This document shows positions 27,391 through 41,560 of a stretch of DNA of 64,000 nucleotides, piece by piece; within the stretch, counting starts at the first letter, position 1; the number at the start of each line of letters is the position of its first letter. The notes under the pieces are model-generated. The model was given only the letters and a program-made list of their open reading frames with translations, ran no database searches and was not told the DNA's origin. The position numbers were made by a program, and so were the translations under genes. Source of the stretch: Pelosinus fermentans DSM 17108 (GTDB lineage Bacteria; Bacillota; Negativicutes; DSM-13327); contig NZ_AKVN02000001.1 in the NCBI RefSeq assembly GCF_000271485.2, positions 996,001 through 1,060,000 of the forward strand, given 5' to 3'.

Positions 27391-27439
27391 ATTTAGATTA
27401 TATTCAGCAAGGATTAAAAAATAGAAAGGAGTGGGGTGG

Positions 27440-27913
27440 TTGGATTTAGGGAAATTCCTGGAGCGTAGTTCACTTAAATTAATTTTGCTGGGTATTGTGG
27501 TTGCGGTGGTGGGAATGGCATTGTCCGGTGCAGGGTTTGTATATTCCAGCGGTCCGAATTTTTGTGGCAGCTGCCATTCTATGAATCATGTATATTATAC
27601 GTGGCAGGCATCAAATCATAAAACCGTAACCTGCAGTGACTGCCATGTTCCTCATGACAATATTCTTTCTATGATGTACGTAAAGGGTGAAAACGGCATG
27701 CGGGATGTATATCATGAATTTCTGCGTGACTATCCTGATACCTTATATTTTACGCCGAAAGGCAAGAGGATTACAGAGGGAAATTGTCTGCGCTGCCATT
27801 TTTCTACTGTGGAAAATACAGCCATGGCAGCAGGTGGACAAAGCTGCATAAAATGTCATCGTGGTATCGTTCATGGTCAAAATAGGAGTCCAGGAGGGGT
27901 TAACGTTGAATAG
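27440..27913 (+). CDS. nrfH: NrfH, tetrahaem quinol dehydrogenase
   Basis: 157 residues from a TTG at 27440; AGGAG ends 8 nt before it, whereas an earlier GTG at 27431 would overlap the ribosome site. One N-terminal membrane helix (about 14-34) anchors the protein. Four haem motifs are seen: CGSCH, CSDCH, CLRCH and CIKCH. NapC/NirT family: passes electrons from menaquinol to NrfA. Confidence 0.93.
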   Translation: MDLGKFLERSSLKLILLGIVVAVVGMALSGAGFVYSSGPNFCGSCHSMNHVYYTWQASNHKTVTCSDCHVPHDNILSMMYVKGENGMRDVYHEFLRDYPDTLYFTPKGKRITEGNCLRCHFSTVENTAMAAGGQSCIKCHRGIVHGQNRSPGGVNVE

Positions 27914-29189
27914 GGCGCAGAAATTTTTAGCCGTATTTTTAGGGATGATGATCGTTTTCTTTGGTGTTATTGTGGTTCGTGTATGGGCCGTTAAACCGCC
28001 GTCAACTATGAAATTATCATCGTTAGCTGCCGGGGAATATGATCCGGCTGTTTGGGGAAAAGCATATCCTTTGGAGTATGCCAGCTACCAAAAGAACTTA
28101 GAGATGGCAGCCTCACCAACGGGGTATGGAGGAAGCGTCAAAGTACCAAAAGCAGATATGCAGCCTGAAATTTACACTAATTTTAAAGGCAATCCCTTTA
28201 GCAAGGATTATACAGAAGATAGAGGACATTTGTATTCCATAGAAGATCTTAAGGAATCCAAACGTATTGGCCCTACTAGCAAAGGTGCATGCATTACCTG
28301 TAAAACACCCTATGTGGAACAATTTTATAAGGAATCGGGCTGGGGATTTGCCAATCAGCCTTTAACCGAGCTTCTTGATAAATCCAAGCACCCTGTCAGC
28401 TGCGCCAACTGTCATGATCCAGAGACTATGAATCTTAGGGTCATTAATCCTGCATTTATTGAAGCAATGGGGCGTCAGGGCATTGATGTAAATAAGGCGA
28501 GCCGGGAAGAAATGCGCAGCTATGTATGCGGACAATGCCATTCGGAATATTATTTTGAACCAGGTACATCACGGGTCATATTTCCTTGGGATCAAGGGAC
28601 TACACCTCAGCAAATGTATCAATATTATGCTGCAAAACCCAATGGATTTCAGCAGGATTTTATACACCCGGATTCGAAAACACCCATATTAAAAGCCCAG
28701 CACGCTGATTTCGAAGAATGGCAAAATGGTGTCCATGCAAAATTCGGCGTATCTTGTGCAGATTGTCATATGCCCTATATTCGCGAAAATGGACAGAAAT
28801 ATAGTTCTCATTGGATGACAAGCCCTTTAAAAAATTTGGATGCGTCTTGTATGCCTTGCCATAAAGATGGCACAGACCAACTGTATAATCAAGTAAAAGC
28901 TACCCAGGATAATGTTTGGCAATTGCAGCATACTGCCGGACTAAACGTGGCTAAGGCCCATGAGATCATAGCCAAAGCCGGAAACATCCCCAATGCCAAT
29001 CAGACGCAGCTGACCAATGCACGGGAATTATTGCGTCAGGCTCAATGGTACTGGGATTATGTAGCGGCATCGAACAGTATGGGTTTTCATAACTCTGTAC
29101 AAGAACTGCATACTCTTGGACAATCCATTGATTTATCTCATCGGGCAATCGATGCTGCAAAGCAAGCTGCAGGTACTAATCAACTGTAA
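27906..29189 (+). CDS. nrfA: NrfA, ammonia-forming cytochrome c nitrite reductase
   Basis: 427 residues from a TTG at 27906, with AGGAGG 8 nt upstream; it overlaps nrfH by 8 bp. A membrane or signal segment lies at residues 5-25. Reduces nitrite to ammonium with six electrons. Five haem sites are visible: the catalytic CITCK with lysine as proximal ligand, then CANCH, CGQCH, CADCH and CMPCH. The substrate-site residues sit in RSYVCGQCHSEY and NGVHAKFGVSC. Role may be respiratory or detoxifying. Confidence 0.95.
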   Translation: MNRAQKFLAVFLGMMIVFFGVIVVRVWAVKPPSTMKLSSLAAGEYDPAVWGKAYPLEYASYQKNLEMAASPTGYGGSVKVPKADMQPEIYTNFKGNPFSKDYTEDRGHLYSIEDLKESKRIGPTSKGACITCKTPYVEQFYKESGWGFANQPLTELLDKSKHPVSCANCHDPETMNLRVINPAFIEAMGRQGIDVNKASREEMRSYVCGQCHSEYYFEPGTSRVIFPWDQGTTPQQMYQYYAAKPNGFQQDFIHPDSKTPILKAQHADFEEWQNGVHAKFGVSCADCHMPYIRENGQKYSSHWMTSPLKNLDASCMPCHKDGTDQLYNQVKATQDNVWQLQHTAGLNVAKAHEIIAKAGNIPNANQTQLTNARELLRQAQWYWDYVAASNSMGFHNSVQELHTLGQSIDLSHRAIDAAKQAAGTNQL

Positions 29190-30549: not shown

Positions 30550-31680
30550 CTAGGGTTTTAATATAACTTTAATACAATTATCAAGCCGATTATCAAATAA
30601 GTCATAGGCTTTCTTACCATCAGTAAGCGGCATGCGGTGGGTGATGATATCGGTAGCATCAAACTTTTCTTCTTTTATTAATTTTAAAATGGGATCTACG
30701 TAAGCATGAGCAGGGCACTGACCCATTTTCAAAGTTATGTTTCGTGAAAAAAAGTCTCCAAAAGGAAAATTGTTGTAACGCATTCCATAAACGCCTACTA
30801 CAGATACTGTTCCACATTTTCTTACAGCTTGGGATGCAATCTCAAGAGCAGACTTTGAGCCACCTTGTAGCATTAACATAGTTTCAATTTCTTCAATTTT
30901 GGACATCACACCATCCATGCCTACGCAATCAATTACTACATCTGCTCCGCCATGAGTTATTTCCTTAATCGTTTCCCCTGTATTATCATATTCATTGAAA
31001 TTTATTGTTTCTACATGATTAAATTTCTTAGCATGAGCAAGTCGATAACCAATATTATCTACAGCTATAATTCGGTTTGCTCCCATATAAGCAGCCCATT
31101 TCTGTGCGAGTAGACCAACTGGTCCGCAGCCTAAAATTACTACTGTGTCACCATTTTTTACACCACCATTTTCGACCCCCCAATAGGATGTCGGGAGGAT
31201 ATCTGTCAGGAAAAGTACCTGCTCGTCCGTAAGTTCTTCGGGAATGACTCTAGGACCTACATTGGCATAAGGAACTCTAAGGTATTCAGCCTGGCCTCCG
31301 TCATAGCCTCCCATAAGATCGCTATAACCAAAGAGTGCACCGACCTCACCATGTTCGTTGGAATTATCACATTGACTCCATAAACCATGATTACAATAGG
31401 AGCAATGACCACAGGCTATAGGAAAAGGAACAATGACTCGATCACCCTTTTTAACCTTTTTGACATCTTTGCCAACTTCTTCAACAATACCCATAGCCTC
31501 ATGGCCAATAACAAAACCCTTGGGTAATTTGGGAATTCTTCCACGAATGAGATGTAAATCAGAACCACAAATGGTGGTAGAGGTAACTTTTACGATAATA
31601 TCATCATTTTTTTCAATCTTTGGATCGTCTACATTGTCGACTTGTATATCTCTAATTCCTTGGTAGGTAATGGCTTTCAT
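30550..31680 (-). CDS. Zinc-dependent alcohol/formaldehyde dehydrogenase family
   Basis: 376 residues. MDR family: catalytic zinc Cys in TICGSDLH, GHEAMGIVEEVG with the second ligand, structural zinc Cys in CGHCSYCNHGLWSQC and the NAD loop GCGPVGLLAQ. The long insert after the structural zinc and the overall length resemble the glutathione-independent formaldehyde-dehydrogenase-like group. Substrate not predictable. AAGGAGCG precedes the start. Confidence 0.88.
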   Translation of the reverse strand: MKAITYQGIRDIQVDNVDDPKIEKNDDIIVKVTSTTICGSDLHLIRGRIPKLPKGFVIGHEAMGIVEEVGKDVKKVKKGDRVIVPFPIACGHCSYCNHGLWSQCDNSNEHGEVGALFGYSDLMGGYDGGQAEYLRVPYANVGPRVIPEELTDEQVLFLTDILPTSYWGVENGGVKNGDTVVILGCGPVGLLAQKWAAYMGANRIIAVDNIGYRLAHAKKFNHVETINFNEYDNTGETIKEITHGGADVVIDCVGMDGVMSKIEEIETMLMLQGGSKSALEIASQAVRKCGTVSVVGVYGMRYNNFPFGDFFSRNITLKMGQCPAHAYVDPILKLIKEEKFDATDIITHRMPLTDGKKAYDLFDNRLDNCIKVILKP

Positions 31681-31822: not shown

Positions 31823-32533
31823 TTACTGAATAAGAGGATTGGGAGATTTTGGAGGATTGGCATTAGGATCTGGATTTTGAAAAGCTGGTGGCTGAGGATT
31901 CTTAATATCAAAGTACTTTCCAGGGGTGGACAGATCAAAATAGAGTCGTGCATTTTCATCTACACCCCAGTCTTTAGTGGAACCGGTTCCCTGTATTTGA
32001 TTAAATGCTTGTCGGAATAAGGTGTTATGAGCTTCTTCTCGATTAAGTAGAAAGTCAATGGTATTTCTGACATGTTGATCTTCAATTTGGCGATAAAGAT
32101 ATTCATAAACAACTTTAGCTCGCTGCTCTGCTGCAATATTTGATAACAGATCTGCTGCCAAATCTCCTGTGACATTTACATAGGCGGCAGTCCAAAGGTA
32201 ACCTGAGGCATTTGCCATTAAGGGATTTAGTCCAGTTAGAACGTGACTTTGAATGTGCCCTGCTTGTACGCCTTCTGTATCCAAATCATGACCGTTCAAT
32301 AAATTTATAGTTGTTGCTACCATTTCCATATGACTTAATTCCTCAGAAGCGATATCCATAAATAAGTCTTTTATGGCTACGTCTTTAATTCGAAAACTTT
32401 GAGCCATATATTGCATTGCTGCTTTCATTTCTCCTTGGGGACCACCTAATTGCTCCGTTAGCATGGCTGCATAAGTGGGGTTTGCTTTTTCTACTCGAAC
32501 ATTTTGTAGAAGCTGTTTATCATGTTTAAACAT
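31823..32533 (-). CDS. Manganese catalase
   Basis: 236 residues. Non-haem di-manganese ferritin-like catalase that splits hydrogen peroxide. Metal ligands are in GGPQGEMKAAMQYM (Glu), ASEELSHMEMV (Glu and His), AEQRAKVVYEYL (Glu) and REEAHNTLF (Glu and His). The C-terminal tail is rich in Pro and Asn. Length is between spore-coat CotJC and classical Mn-catalases; a coat-associated form is possible. It is divergent from cooS across a 318-bp gap. Confidence 0.9.
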   Translation of the reverse strand: MFKHDKQLLQNVRVEKANPTYAAMLTEQLGGPQGEMKAAMQYMAQSFRIKDVAIKDLFMDIASEELSHMEMVATTINLLNGHDLDTEGVQAGHIQSHVLTGLNPLMANASGYLWTAAYVNVTGDLAADLLSNIAAEQRAKVVYEYLYRQIEDQHVRNTIDFLLNREEAHNTLFRQAFNQIQGTGSTKDWGVDENARLYFDLSTPGKYFDIKNPQPPAFQNPDPNANPPKSPNPLIQ

Positions 32534-32851
32534 TGATGCATCTCCTTAGTTGTTATTATTTATTTAATAGTAGTATGACTAATAATTTCTTTAATAATAC
32601 AATACGTTAATCGTAATTTGGAACCTAAATTAGAAGAGTAAATATAAATAGTGTGTGCAAAATTCCTTGAATATAAAATTACAATTTAGATGAATACTAG
32701 TAATAAAGTTATTTTCTACGTAAAGCTAGTGTTGTAAGCATATGGAAGGTAAAACACATTTCTACGGAGAGATCACAATTTAATCATTTAATATTCTTTC
32801 ATCGAAGGTTAAATCCTTAATATTCATAAACATAAATAAGGGGGAATCGTA
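32534..32851. other. Divergent control region between Mn-catalase and cooS
   Basis: 318 bp, about 70 percent A+T, with no reading frame of interest. It must hold the promoters of both genes. I could not identify a convincing -35/-10 pair or a classical PerR or Fur box by eye. Confidence 0.5.
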
Positions 32852-34972
32852 ATGTCAAATGAAACGTTGATAAAAAGCACCGATCAGACGAGCCGTGGTG
32901 ATGTAGAATCAATTGACGGAAAAGGTGATGCCAGCGGTACAAATGATCCCAATCGTCATTTTGATGTTCACCAGAATTCAAAAAAATACTATGATATTGA
33001 AAAATCACCTAAATCGATGGAGCAAGTACATGAGTGGCAGCGTCAGCATATTCAGACACATGATCAAGGTAAAGAGGGGTATCCGCTAAATGTTATTGTG
33101 GATCCTGCAATGCGCGAAATGTATCAGCACGTTCATGCGCAAGGACTGACGAATGTTTTTGATCGATTCGAACAGCAAGAACGGATTCGCTGTAATTTTT
33201 GTACATCGGGTTTATCCTGCCAATTATGTGCCAACGGCCCCTGCCGCATCAATGCAAAAACGCCGCGTGGTAATTGCGGTGTTGATGCAGATGTAATGGT
33301 TGCAAGAAACTTTGTTTATCGCCACGTAACAATTGGGACATCTGCCAATATTTTTCATGCACAACAAGCTGCTCGTACCTTGAAGGCAGCTGCTGAAAAG
33401 CCAGAGAGTGGCTTAAGAATTCGTGATAAAGAAAAGCTGCTTAAATATGCTGAGATGGCTGGCTTAGATAGTCACGAAGATGTTAGCAGAGTAGCAATTA
33501 ATTTTGCCAACTGGGTACTTGAAGATATGGGCAGACCTTATTGGGAAGAGTCGTCAATGACAAAAGCTTTCGCTCCTCCAAAACGACAGGAATTATGGCG
33601 CAAATTAAAATTATTCCCTGGTGGTGGGTTTAGCGAAATTGCATTTGCCCAGACAAAATGTATGACAAATCTTAACGCTGACCCAGTTGATTTCTTACTT
33701 ACTTCAGTACGTCTAGGTATTGCAAATGAATACCAAGGATTGTTCGCTCTTGATATACTGCAAGAAATATTAATGGGCACTCAAAAAATAAGAACTGCAA
33801 AGCAAAATATGGGACTACTCGATAAAAATATGGTAAATATTATTTCCAATGGGCACATGCCTCTTACAGCTCATATTGTTATTGAACTCGCTTCCACTCC
33901 GGAATGGCAAGAAAAGGCACGCAAGGCAGGGGCAACTGGTCTTCAAATACTCGGGCATGTTTGTGAAGGCCAACAGTTACTTAATTATGAGGATACAGGA
34001 AAAATGAGTGCATATGGTGGACAGGAAGGCGAATGGCTATCAGAAGAGTACTTGTTTGCAACTGGAGCCGTTGATTTATTCATGTTTGATTATAACTGTA
34101 CGATTCCAACCCTCCCGCTGTATGCTAAACGATTTGGTACTACAATGGTTAGTACTCATGAAGTCATTCGTATGCCAGATACACAAGTGGTAGAGTTTAA
34201 GCCGGAAGAGATGCGTACACAGGCTGCAAAAATTCTGGATATGGCAATAGAAGCTTATTCGAAACGTAAAGCAGAAAATAGAGAAGTGTATATTCCGCCA
34301 CATGTGTCTAATTGTATGATAGGATTTAGTACAGAGTCAGTGAAGGCAGCTCTGGGTGGTTCATGGAAGCCCCTTATTGATGCCATTGTCGAAGGGAAAA
34401 TTCGAGGTATTGCTACGATAGTAGGCTGTACAACGGCTCGTTATGGGCAAGGTGGCAGTAATATATTCCGGATAACCAAAGGTCTTATTGAAAAAGATAT
34501 TTTAGTATTATCTGGGGGCTGTACTTCATCTGTTATGCAGTATACTGGACTTGCTGATCCAAGCGCAGCAGAAGAAGCTGGATCTGGGTTAAAGGCAGTT
34601 TGTAAGGCATTAGGAATCCCGCCAGTGCTCTCCTATGGCGCATGTGTAGATATAGGGAAAATGACCCAGACCGCTAAGGAAATTGCTGATGCGTTAGATG
34701 TAGATACCAATATGTTGCCGATTGTCATTGGTGCACCAGAATACTTAGAGCAAAAAGCAGTTGCAGATGCTTGTACGGCTATTGCTCTTGGCTGGCTAGT
34801 CCACGTGGCACCTGTTCCCTCTGTAACAGGTAGTGACCTAGTAGTAAAAACATTAACAGAAACAACGGAAACATTAGGATTAGGAAAACTCACAGTGGAG
34901 ACTAATGCAGACAAAACGGTGCAAATTTATGTAGATCATATAGAAAAAAAGCGTAAAGAACTTGGAATATAA
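32852..34972 (+). CDS. cooS: CooS, anaerobic Ni-CO dehydrogenase catalytic subunit
   Basis: 706 residues; oxidises CO or reduces CO2. B-cluster cysteines lie in LSCQLCANGPCRI and NCGVDAD. C-cluster ligands appear conserved: His in SNGHMPL, Cys in HVCEGQQ, DYNCTIP, VGCTTARYG, SGGCTSS and GACVDIG, and the Lys in EQKAVADA. The D-cluster segment is RCNFCTSGLSC, that is CX2C in place of the usual CX7C. About 75 residues at the N-terminus are extra compared with CODH II. No ACS subunits, CooC or CooF lie nearby. Neighbours are Mn-catalase and a spore-type small protein. Confidence 0.93.
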   Translation: MSNETLIKSTDQTSRGDVESIDGKGDASGTNDPNRHFDVHQNSKKYYDIEKSPKSMEQVHEWQRQHIQTHDQGKEGYPLNVIVDPAMREMYQHVHAQGLTNVFDRFEQQERIRCNFCTSGLSCQLCANGPCRINAKTPRGNCGVDADVMVARNFVYRHVTIGTSANIFHAQQAARTLKAAAEKPESGLRIRDKEKLLKYAEMAGLDSHEDVSRVAINFANWVLEDMGRPYWEESSMTKAFAPPKRQELWRKLKLFPGGGFSEIAFAQTKCMTNLNADPVDFLLTSVRLGIANEYQGLFALDILQEILMGTQKIRTAKQNMGLLDKNMVNIISNGHMPLTAHIVIELASTPEWQEKARKAGATGLQILGHVCEGQQLLNYEDTGKMSAYGGQEGEWLSEEYLFATGAVDLFMFDYNCTIPTLPLYAKRFGTTMVSTHEVIRMPDTQVVEFKPEEMRTQAAKILDMAIEAYSKRKAENREVYIPPHVSNCMIGFSTESVKAALGGSWKPLIDAIVEGKIRGIATIVGCTTARYGQGGSNIFRITKGLIEKDILVLSGGCTSSVMQYTGLADPSAAEEAGSGLKAVCKALGIPPVLSYGACVDIGKMTQTAKEIADALDVDTNMLPIVIGAPEYLEQKAVADACTAIALGWLVHVAPVPSVTGSDLVVKTLTETTETLGLGKLTVETNADKTVQIYVDHIEKKRKELGI

Positions 34973-35040: not shown

Positions 35041-35214
35041 ATGACTGAAAATCGTTCAAAAGAAAAGTTTCAAGCAAATCCCATTGAGCGGCATGAGACT
35101 GCGGCTTGGCGCGGACATATCGAAAAAACGAAGCCCGAGTCAAATGTTCCTGTTCCCAGCGAGGAGTCCGTGGCTGAGGCCAGGGAATGGGTAAATACGA
35201 ATTCCTTATCCTAA
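35041..35214 (+). CDS. DUF3787-like small spore-type protein
   Basis: 57 residues, AAAGGAGG 8 nt before the ATG. The pattern PIERHETAAWRGHIEKTKP followed by VPVPSEESVAEAREWVN matches the short DUF3787 family that includes clostridial spore proteins; this is recalled, not searched. It is very polar with no membrane segment. It sits 68 bp after cooS and shares its terminator, so it is probably cotranscribed. Confidence 0.7.
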   Translation: MTENRSKEKFQANPIERHETAAWRGHIEKTKPESNVPVPSEESVAEAREWVNTNSLS

Positions 35215-41311: not shown

Positions 41312-41560
41312 TTATTGTTTATGGTTGCTTGCTTCGGCAGCTTCTGCTGCTGAATTTTCTGCCATTTGTTCTTCAGCCATTTCGATCATCATTTTTACTT
41401 TTTGACCACCGATTCGGCCACCAATTTTACCAACTTGGCTAGTGGTTAATTCGCTATTATGACCTTGATCTAGTGGTATGCCCAGTTCCTCTGCTACTTC
41501 ATGTTTATTAGGAAGGGCTGCATTCAGTTCCTGCATTGTATCAATTTTACCTTTGACCAT
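41312..41560 (-). CDS. Small acid-soluble spore protein, alpha/beta type
   Basis: 82 residues from the ATG at 41560, which has GGGAG 10 nt upstream; an earlier GTG is too close to that site. KHEVAEELGIPL near residue 20 and LTTSQVGKIGGRIGGQKVK further on follow the alpha/beta SASP plan (EVA.ELG ... GxxGG.mVK.mI.mAE), and MIEMAEEQM completes it. These proteins coat and protect DNA in dormant spores. The N- and C-terminal extensions are longer than in Bacillus SASPs. Presence implies endospore formation. Confidence 0.82.
   Translation of the reverse strand: MVKGKIDTMQELNAALPNKHEVAEELGIPLDQGHNSELTTSQVGKIGGRIGGQKVKMMIEMAEEQMAENSAAEAAEASNHKQ

Follow-up and report, generated by a model that had tools for sequence, protein, structure and literature searches.

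The window, a stretch of 64,000 nucleotides from the genome of Pelosinus fermentans DSM 17108, carries a CODH-family gene flanked on one side by two genes of the opposite strand and on the other by a small gene of the same strand (Table 1). The encoded protein matched the profile TIGR01702 (anaerobic CODH) at 666.8 bits (cut-off 478) and PF03063 at 487.1 bits (cut-off 27), and its closest named match is in a Pelosinus fermentans MAG (98%). The divergent manganese-catalase family gene is presumably CotJC-like. Two multihaem cytochrome genes like nrfH-nrfA (nitrite to ammonium), recognised by sequence reading, lie at 27431-29189 (+), with cytochrome c maturation-like genes ahead of them. An SASP-family gene (PF00269, 48.1 bits) is found some 6 kb beyond the CODH gene in the downstream direction, at 41363-41548 (-), or G000:C1:1037363-1037548 in the coordinates of the whole genome (G000). 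Reading the ORFs of window positions 1-44000 by eye gave no recognisable product of acs, cooC or cooF, in line with a preliminary description of the gene in which none of the three was adjacent. Of the five prismane-family loci in the genome, L003 encodes a canonical CODH that is most similar to CODH-IV. In a hybrid-cluster-protein (HCP)-like gene of the same genome (G000:C1:4813146-4814423), two separate profile matches (L005 and L006) fall in one 433-aa frame and are spaced as though the middle part were absent.

Table 1. Features of the CODH-family locus in the window, and the element that splits the homologous gene in two other genomes.
Feature	Position	Strand	Basis
Zinc-dependent alcohol dehydrogenase family gene	30550..31680	-	COG1063 type by sequence reading
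Divergent manganese-catalase family gene	31823..32533	-	PF05067, 184.5 bits
Upstream region used in the promoter scan	32712..32851	+	Best sigma-G-like site 8/11
CODH-family gene, clade D structural group D-2, 706 aa	32852..34972	+	ATG start, ORF list and TIGR01702
N-terminal extension, residues 1-84	32852..33103	+	Conservation in D-2, pLDDT
D-cluster CX2C (C114, C117) and B-cluster cysteines C123, C126, C131, C142	33191..33277	+	Invariant in 71/71
Asn166 at the acid-base His place (CODH-II H93)	33347..33349	+	Alignment, conservation
C-cluster-type ligands H335 (33854), C371 (33962), C416 (34097), C526 (34427), C557 (34520), C598 (34643)	33854..34645	+	
E633-Q634-K635: Glu at the place of CooS-V ligand Glu556, and catalytic-type Lys	34748..34756	+	
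Small downstream gene, spore surface protein CDIF630_02480-like	35041..35214	+	PF12655, 59.6 bits (cut-off 25)
Prophage with serine integrase and ars/DMSO-reductase-type cargo, at the same codon of D-2	L130 8792-16777, L181-L185, L121, L122, L131, L186, L187		

By its sequence the window protein belongs to structural group D-2 of clade D, which is published but uncharacterised (Inoue et al., 2019; PMC6344411), because its signature of a CX2C D-cluster, a His plus five Cys, an Asn and a Lys matches D-2 exactly. Table 2 of that paper gives D-2 (representative WP_015926279) a type III D-cluster, an Asn for the acid-base His and a retained Lys. All of the signatures in the table are found in the window protein; unlike the sequences here, the table reports no N-terminal extension. 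We collected 80 D-2 sequences (79 named loci and the window), of which the 71 full-length ones were used for conservation, and the signature (C-X2-C-X5-C; C-cluster H and C1-C5, Asn, Lys) is complete in 71/71. The segment of the window protein reads C114-N-F-C117-T-S-G-L-S122-C123, i.e., C-X2-C-X5-C, and Ser122 takes the position of the second D-cluster Cys in CX7C enzymes, just as the preliminary description had it. The same description had raised sequencing errors in this segment. These, like chance, are ruled out because C114, C117 and C123 are invariant in 71/71 orthologues, and across these sequences the CX2C segment is an ordinary feature for D-2.

The preliminary description had also proposed placing the protein in a CODH tree. 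Our tree has 37 rows, among them 16 of the 71 full-length D-2 proteins, and was built without the representative WP_015926279. All 16 D-2 rows form one clade (support 100/100), the sister of which is a clade of CooS-V from Carboxydothermus hydrogenoformans and three D-1-type proteins (100/99), in a tree for which the program flagged long branches. Clade D rows with CX7C and Tyr branch outside D-2 and the CooS-V/D-1 clade, and CODH-IV and the CODHs of R. rubrum and Thermococcus fall on the opposite side from clade D. The whole-genome searches set D-2 apart: a match either has the N-terminal region and an identity of 66% or more, or lacks the region and reaches 48% at most, a few degenerate fragments or fragments at contig ends being disregarded.

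Among solved proteins, CooS-V is nearest to the window protein both in sequence (D-1, PDB 7b7q, 5.7e-141) and in fold (7b9a, TMt 0.92; 7b7q, TMt 0.91), at 38% identity. The two are alike in the CX2C segment and in the equivalents of Glu556 and Asn337. CooS-V has Glu for Cys295 and a Tyr at the acid-base place, whereas D-2 has Cys371 and Asn166, and D-2 differs further by its N-terminal extension of at least 70 residues. In the published account, an extra Cys41 of CooS-V binds the subunit-bridging [2Fe-2S] cluster, and an Fe/S/O hybrid cluster without Ni is bound by Glu556 as well; the enzyme is reported to carry out neither CO oxidation nor CO2 reduction, and to reduce hydroxylamine slowly (PMC9311411). 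A [2Fe-2S] D-cluster in the window protein is likely by analogy, since CooS-V has one. The preliminary description had arrived at the same cluster through the Desulfovibrio vulgaris CODH (E-2), and the CX2C segment ([2Fe-2S]) is indeed common to both proteins. CooS-V is nevertheless the better analogue: the D. vulgaris enzyme is canonical and active, is 33% identical to the window protein, and acquired its CX2C separately, by a parallel origin in the view of the CooS-V authors (PMC9311411).

All six C-cluster ligands are kept, as had been described. H335, C371, C416, C526, C557 and C598 are equivalent to H261, C295, C333, C446, C476 and C526 of CODH-II, the numbering of which was transferred from alignments of the window protein. 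The acid-base His of catalytic Ni,Fe-CODHs (clades E/F type) is absent, with Asn166 in its place in 71/71 D-2 proteins. Glu633, two residues ahead of the catalytic Lys635, is invariant in 71/71 and provides D-2 with the Glu556-type ligand of the CooS-V hybrid cluster. D-2 also retains Asn415, which by our alignment equals Asn337 of CooS-V. Cys371 (CODH-II Cys295) is invariant in D-2, with no Glu at this place, unlike D-1 and CooS-V. As read from the alignments, the D-2 active site is a mosaic that combines a CODH-like Cys371 with the hybrid-cluster-site residues Glu633 and Asn415. Because these two residues occur together with an Asn for the acid-base His, CO turnover by D-2 appears doubtful, and the protein is probably no longer a CO dehydrogenase. 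The active CODH of the preliminary description is left unsupported by the loss of the catalytic His and the invariant Glu at the hybrid-cluster ligand place, and the sister protein CooS-V is itself without CO activity.

The extra N-terminal region, noted earlier with the suggestion that it be sought in homologues, is conserved across D-2. Residues N31, P33, W62-Q63-R64, H66 and Q72 are 99-100% conserved, W62-Q63-R64-x-H66 is invariant throughout the group, and among the matches of the whole-genome searches the extension occurs only in D-2. No family in Pfam or NCBIfam matched it. In an AlphaFold2 model of the window protein (mean pLDDT 79, pTM 0.83) the first 29 residues have a pLDDT below 50, so that about 30 residues are predicted to be disordered, and a confident helix at 56-67 bears WQR-H. 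At a guess, the region could serve for packing or for a regulatory contact. A likeness of the extension to the adjoining PF12655 protein had been suspected by eye and was rejected (hhalign probability 0.2%; no match by phmmer).

There is no conserved operon partner, in that no neighbour family occurs in more than 16/77 D-2 loci within 8 kb. When 110 flanking proteins (24 of the 134 being left out) were sorted by Pfam family, no recurrent partner emerged either, the top family being MFS_1 (7/110). Over the 79 named loci and the window, PF12655 adjoins D-2 only in the window and in its nearest relative (L057), with a third match (L101) 6 kb off. Manganese-catalase genes are near D-2 in five loci and alcohol dehydrogenase genes in two, the window included in both counts. 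The PF12655 and manganese-catalase neighbours are local to nearest relatives and were therefore given little weight. A conserved spore-gene neighbourhood of D-2 was rejected, since spore-type neighbours are confined to few loci. D-2 genes are otherwise solitary, as is clade D generally: 64% of clade D genes are without neighbours, and a 2026 survey saw no neighbourhood pattern in these CODHs and set the group aside (PMC13056359).

D-2 genes track sporulation, and this association, a strong computational link, is new. We used an even draw of 300 Negativicutes genomes, counting D-2 at 75% identity or more and taking SpoIVA (PF09547) above its cut-off as the sporulation marker. D-2 was found in 32 genomes (30 intact, 2 split), which span ten families by our own count, and SpoIVA in 51. 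SpoIVA is present in 30/32 D-2 genomes vs. 21/268 others (Fisher p = 3e-25, uncorrected for relatedness, related genomes not being independent), and the two D-2 genomes without it are drafts, 83% (G004) and 92% (G037) complete. Among Negativicutes with other CODHs and without D-2, only 9/50 have SpoIVA. As 21 SpoIVA-positive Negativicutes lack D-2, the gene is dispensable for sporulation. In a phylum sample of 398 genomes D-2 occurs in 17, all with SpoIVA (17/17), and SpoIVA in 336/398 overall, which by itself is weak evidence for the link.

The 79 named D-2 loci are all from Bacillota by label save one contig, and most of their genera are spore formers. The exception, a 3.7-kb contig labelled Paludibaculum (L134), hardly differs from Selenomonadales sequences in bins of similar name, and misbinning is probable. 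Two D-2 genes each were found in Geosporobacter ferrireducens (L089 and L091) and in a Pelosinus MAG (L058 and L063), in which contamination is possible. A decayed copy in Clostridium folliculivorans (L133, 8001-9187) has lost residues 217-526 and carries a frameshift at the scar. The words spore and sporul- are absent from the main texts of Inoue et al. (2019) and Bohm and Land (2026), and the word spore from Jeoung (2022). In our literature search no title or abstract opening ties D-2 to spores.

For the promoter scan, 140 bp upstream of 75 D-2 genes were scored against sigma factor consensus sequences of B. subtilis, the sigma-G type being GYATR-N17/18-CATNHTA. Five of the 80 D-2 sequences were left out, their N-terminal part being missing, and D-2 starts were placed at the codon that aligns with residue 1 of the window protein, which could misplace some of them by a few codons. 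The controls, drawn from the same genomes, were SASP genes (sigma-G; 22/30 loci) and SpoIVA genes (sigma-E; 29/30 loci), the rest having been dropped because the ORF start was unresolved. Sigma-G sites are enriched upstream of D-2, both against 597 same-locus genes (p = 1e-15) and against shuffles (p = 2e-12). The mean sigma-G score is 8.85 for D-2 (n = 75) and 8.04 for the other genes (n = 597), compared with 9.82 for SASP (n = 22), 7.93 for SpoIVA (n = 29) and 7.94 for 16 other CODH genes (p = 2e-5 vs. D-2); for sigma-G the two control sets thus scored as expected. A score of at least 9 is reached by 49/75 D-2 genes vs. 140/597 other genes, and the sigma-G-type -10 box of D-2 clusters 36-47 bp before residue 1. 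With one gene per genus-level group, 32/48 score at least 9 vs. 22% of dinucleotide shuffles (p = 1e-12), and Negativicutes (23) and the remainder (52) each show the effect. The best sigma-G-like site of the window copy itself is weak.

Sigma-A sites were not enriched upstream of D-2 in either scan. Sigma-K sites, the mother cell control, showed no enrichment in the full scan (p = 0.53 vs. shuffles); a narrower scan gave p = 1e-3, yet with fewer near-maximum sites than in the controls. Consensus scores for SigF and SigE are raised too, less than for sigma-G, and the sigma-E test is weak because the SpoIVA control scored poorly for sigma-E. SigF and SigG sequences are described as overlapping in clostridia (PMC7438776), which makes "forespore" a safer label than "sigma-G". 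As a group, D-2 genes carry predicted forespore promoters of sigma-G type. Two related D-1-type genes (L023 and L024) have a sigma-G site of 9/11 at 35 bp, and D-1 may share the forespore link.

In two Selenomonadales MAGs (G474 and G518; L121/L130 and L122/L131) the two halves of the D-2 gene lie on separate contigs. In congeners where the gene is whole (G462, G470, G058), one of its flanks is collinear with the sequence upstream of the N-half and the other with that downstream of the C-half. The ends of the split gene have the common core GTCGC, and once the insert is taken out, the rejoined sequence of either genome continues in frame as ...GGGNSEVAFAQTKCMTN.... The left end of the insert in G474 encodes a 547-aa serine recombinase (Resolvase, Recombinase, zinc ribbon; phrog_95 integrase) that begins 88 bp from the junction, and after it come terminase, portal, major head and replication genes; arsenic and molybdopterin-oxidoreductase genes are on the right side. 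The inserted sequence on the two contigs amounts to about 66 kb, with a GC content of 52-60% vs. 63-65% in the flanks, and the two sides would belong to one element. The insertion site is the same in G474 and G518, which are about 83-85% identical there; the complete recombinase is visible in G474 alone, the contig of G518 breaking off within the element. Sporulation genes split by phage-type elements are known as sporulation gene-intervening elements (PMC5595907). The skin, SP-beta, gin and yin elements are likewise prophages with a large serine recombinase at an intragenic junction, with the frame coming back on rejoining (PMC5595907, PMC4191935, PMC10747680); unlike them, the putative element of this kind here targets a CODH-family gene with a forespore-type promoter. 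In the genus with the split gene, the D-2 promoter is sigma-G-like (GCATA-N17-CAGACTA).

To our knowledge, the known sporulation-specific gene splits are all in mother-cell genes, so that a forespore gene would be an unusual host for a prophage. Given these targets and the forespore-type promoter of D-2, plain lysogeny is as likely as programmed excision. An ordinary prophage would then have inactivated a dispensable gene that is not rebuilt in sporulation; excision in the forespore would cost the element its germ-line place, and split copies were seen in just two related MAGs. The insertion within the reading frame with precise ends, the intact-looking serine integrase so near the junction, the frame restored on joining and the site shared by two genomes at this level of identity speak against plain lysogeny, since together they resemble known sporulation splits (PMC5595907).

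We favour, with moderate confidence, the explanation that D-2 is a redox protein dedicated to the spore, produced in the forespore and bearing an HCP/CooS-V-like cluster instead of performing CO chemistry. It would be a homodimeric electron-transfer protein of the CODH/hybrid-cluster-protein fold, with a [2Fe-2S] D-cluster that bridges the subunits, two [4Fe-4S] B-clusters and an altered cluster at the active site. The forespore would make it under sigma-G at a late stage of sporulation, and a location in or around the spore core would follow from this. Rather than turning over CO, the protein may reduce or sense a small oxidant (hydroxylamine, NO or O2-derived) and so shield the anaerobe's spore in dormancy or outgrowth.

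An active orphan Ni,Fe-CODH that oxidises CO in vegetative metabolism, its D-cluster being [2Fe-2S] as in D. vulgaris, would account for the six C-cluster ligands, the catalytic Lys and the CX2C segment. We regard it as very doubtful, given the invariant Asn and hybrid-cluster-type Glu, the grouping with CooS-V and not with canonical enzymes, the lack of maturation or redox partner genes recognised by eye in window positions 1-44000, and an association with sporulation and not with CO metabolism. It is also unlikely that D-2 is an HCP-like protein for nitrosative or oxidative stress in vegetative cells, tied to spore formers only through the shared ancestry of large-genome anaerobes. The HCP-like features of D-2 would agree with such a role, as would the nrfHA-like pair 4-5 kb upstream in the window and the frequent co-occurrence of clade D and HCP (PMC13056359), but it leaves unexplained the sigma-G-type promoters, which the 16 other CODH genes lack, and the asporogenous Negativicutes that hold other CODHs but not D-2.

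A wider form of the favoured explanation, a spore-dedicated redox protein, is speculative and has only a small chance of being correct: D-2 proteins would be the first spore-dedicated CODH-fold enzymes, made in the forespore alongside SASPs and present in the dormant spore, and in some species they would be switched on only by prophage exit in sporulation. If this were true, prophage exit would mean rebuilding in the forespore lineage and not in the doomed mother cell. D-2-type genes in metagenomes call for caution and should not be counted as CO utilisation. Clade D CODHs are solitary genes of obscure role, and the spore and sigma-G assignment would give D-2 a testable one. It suggests that anaerobes may pack an iron-sulfur/hybrid-cluster redox enzyme into their spores.
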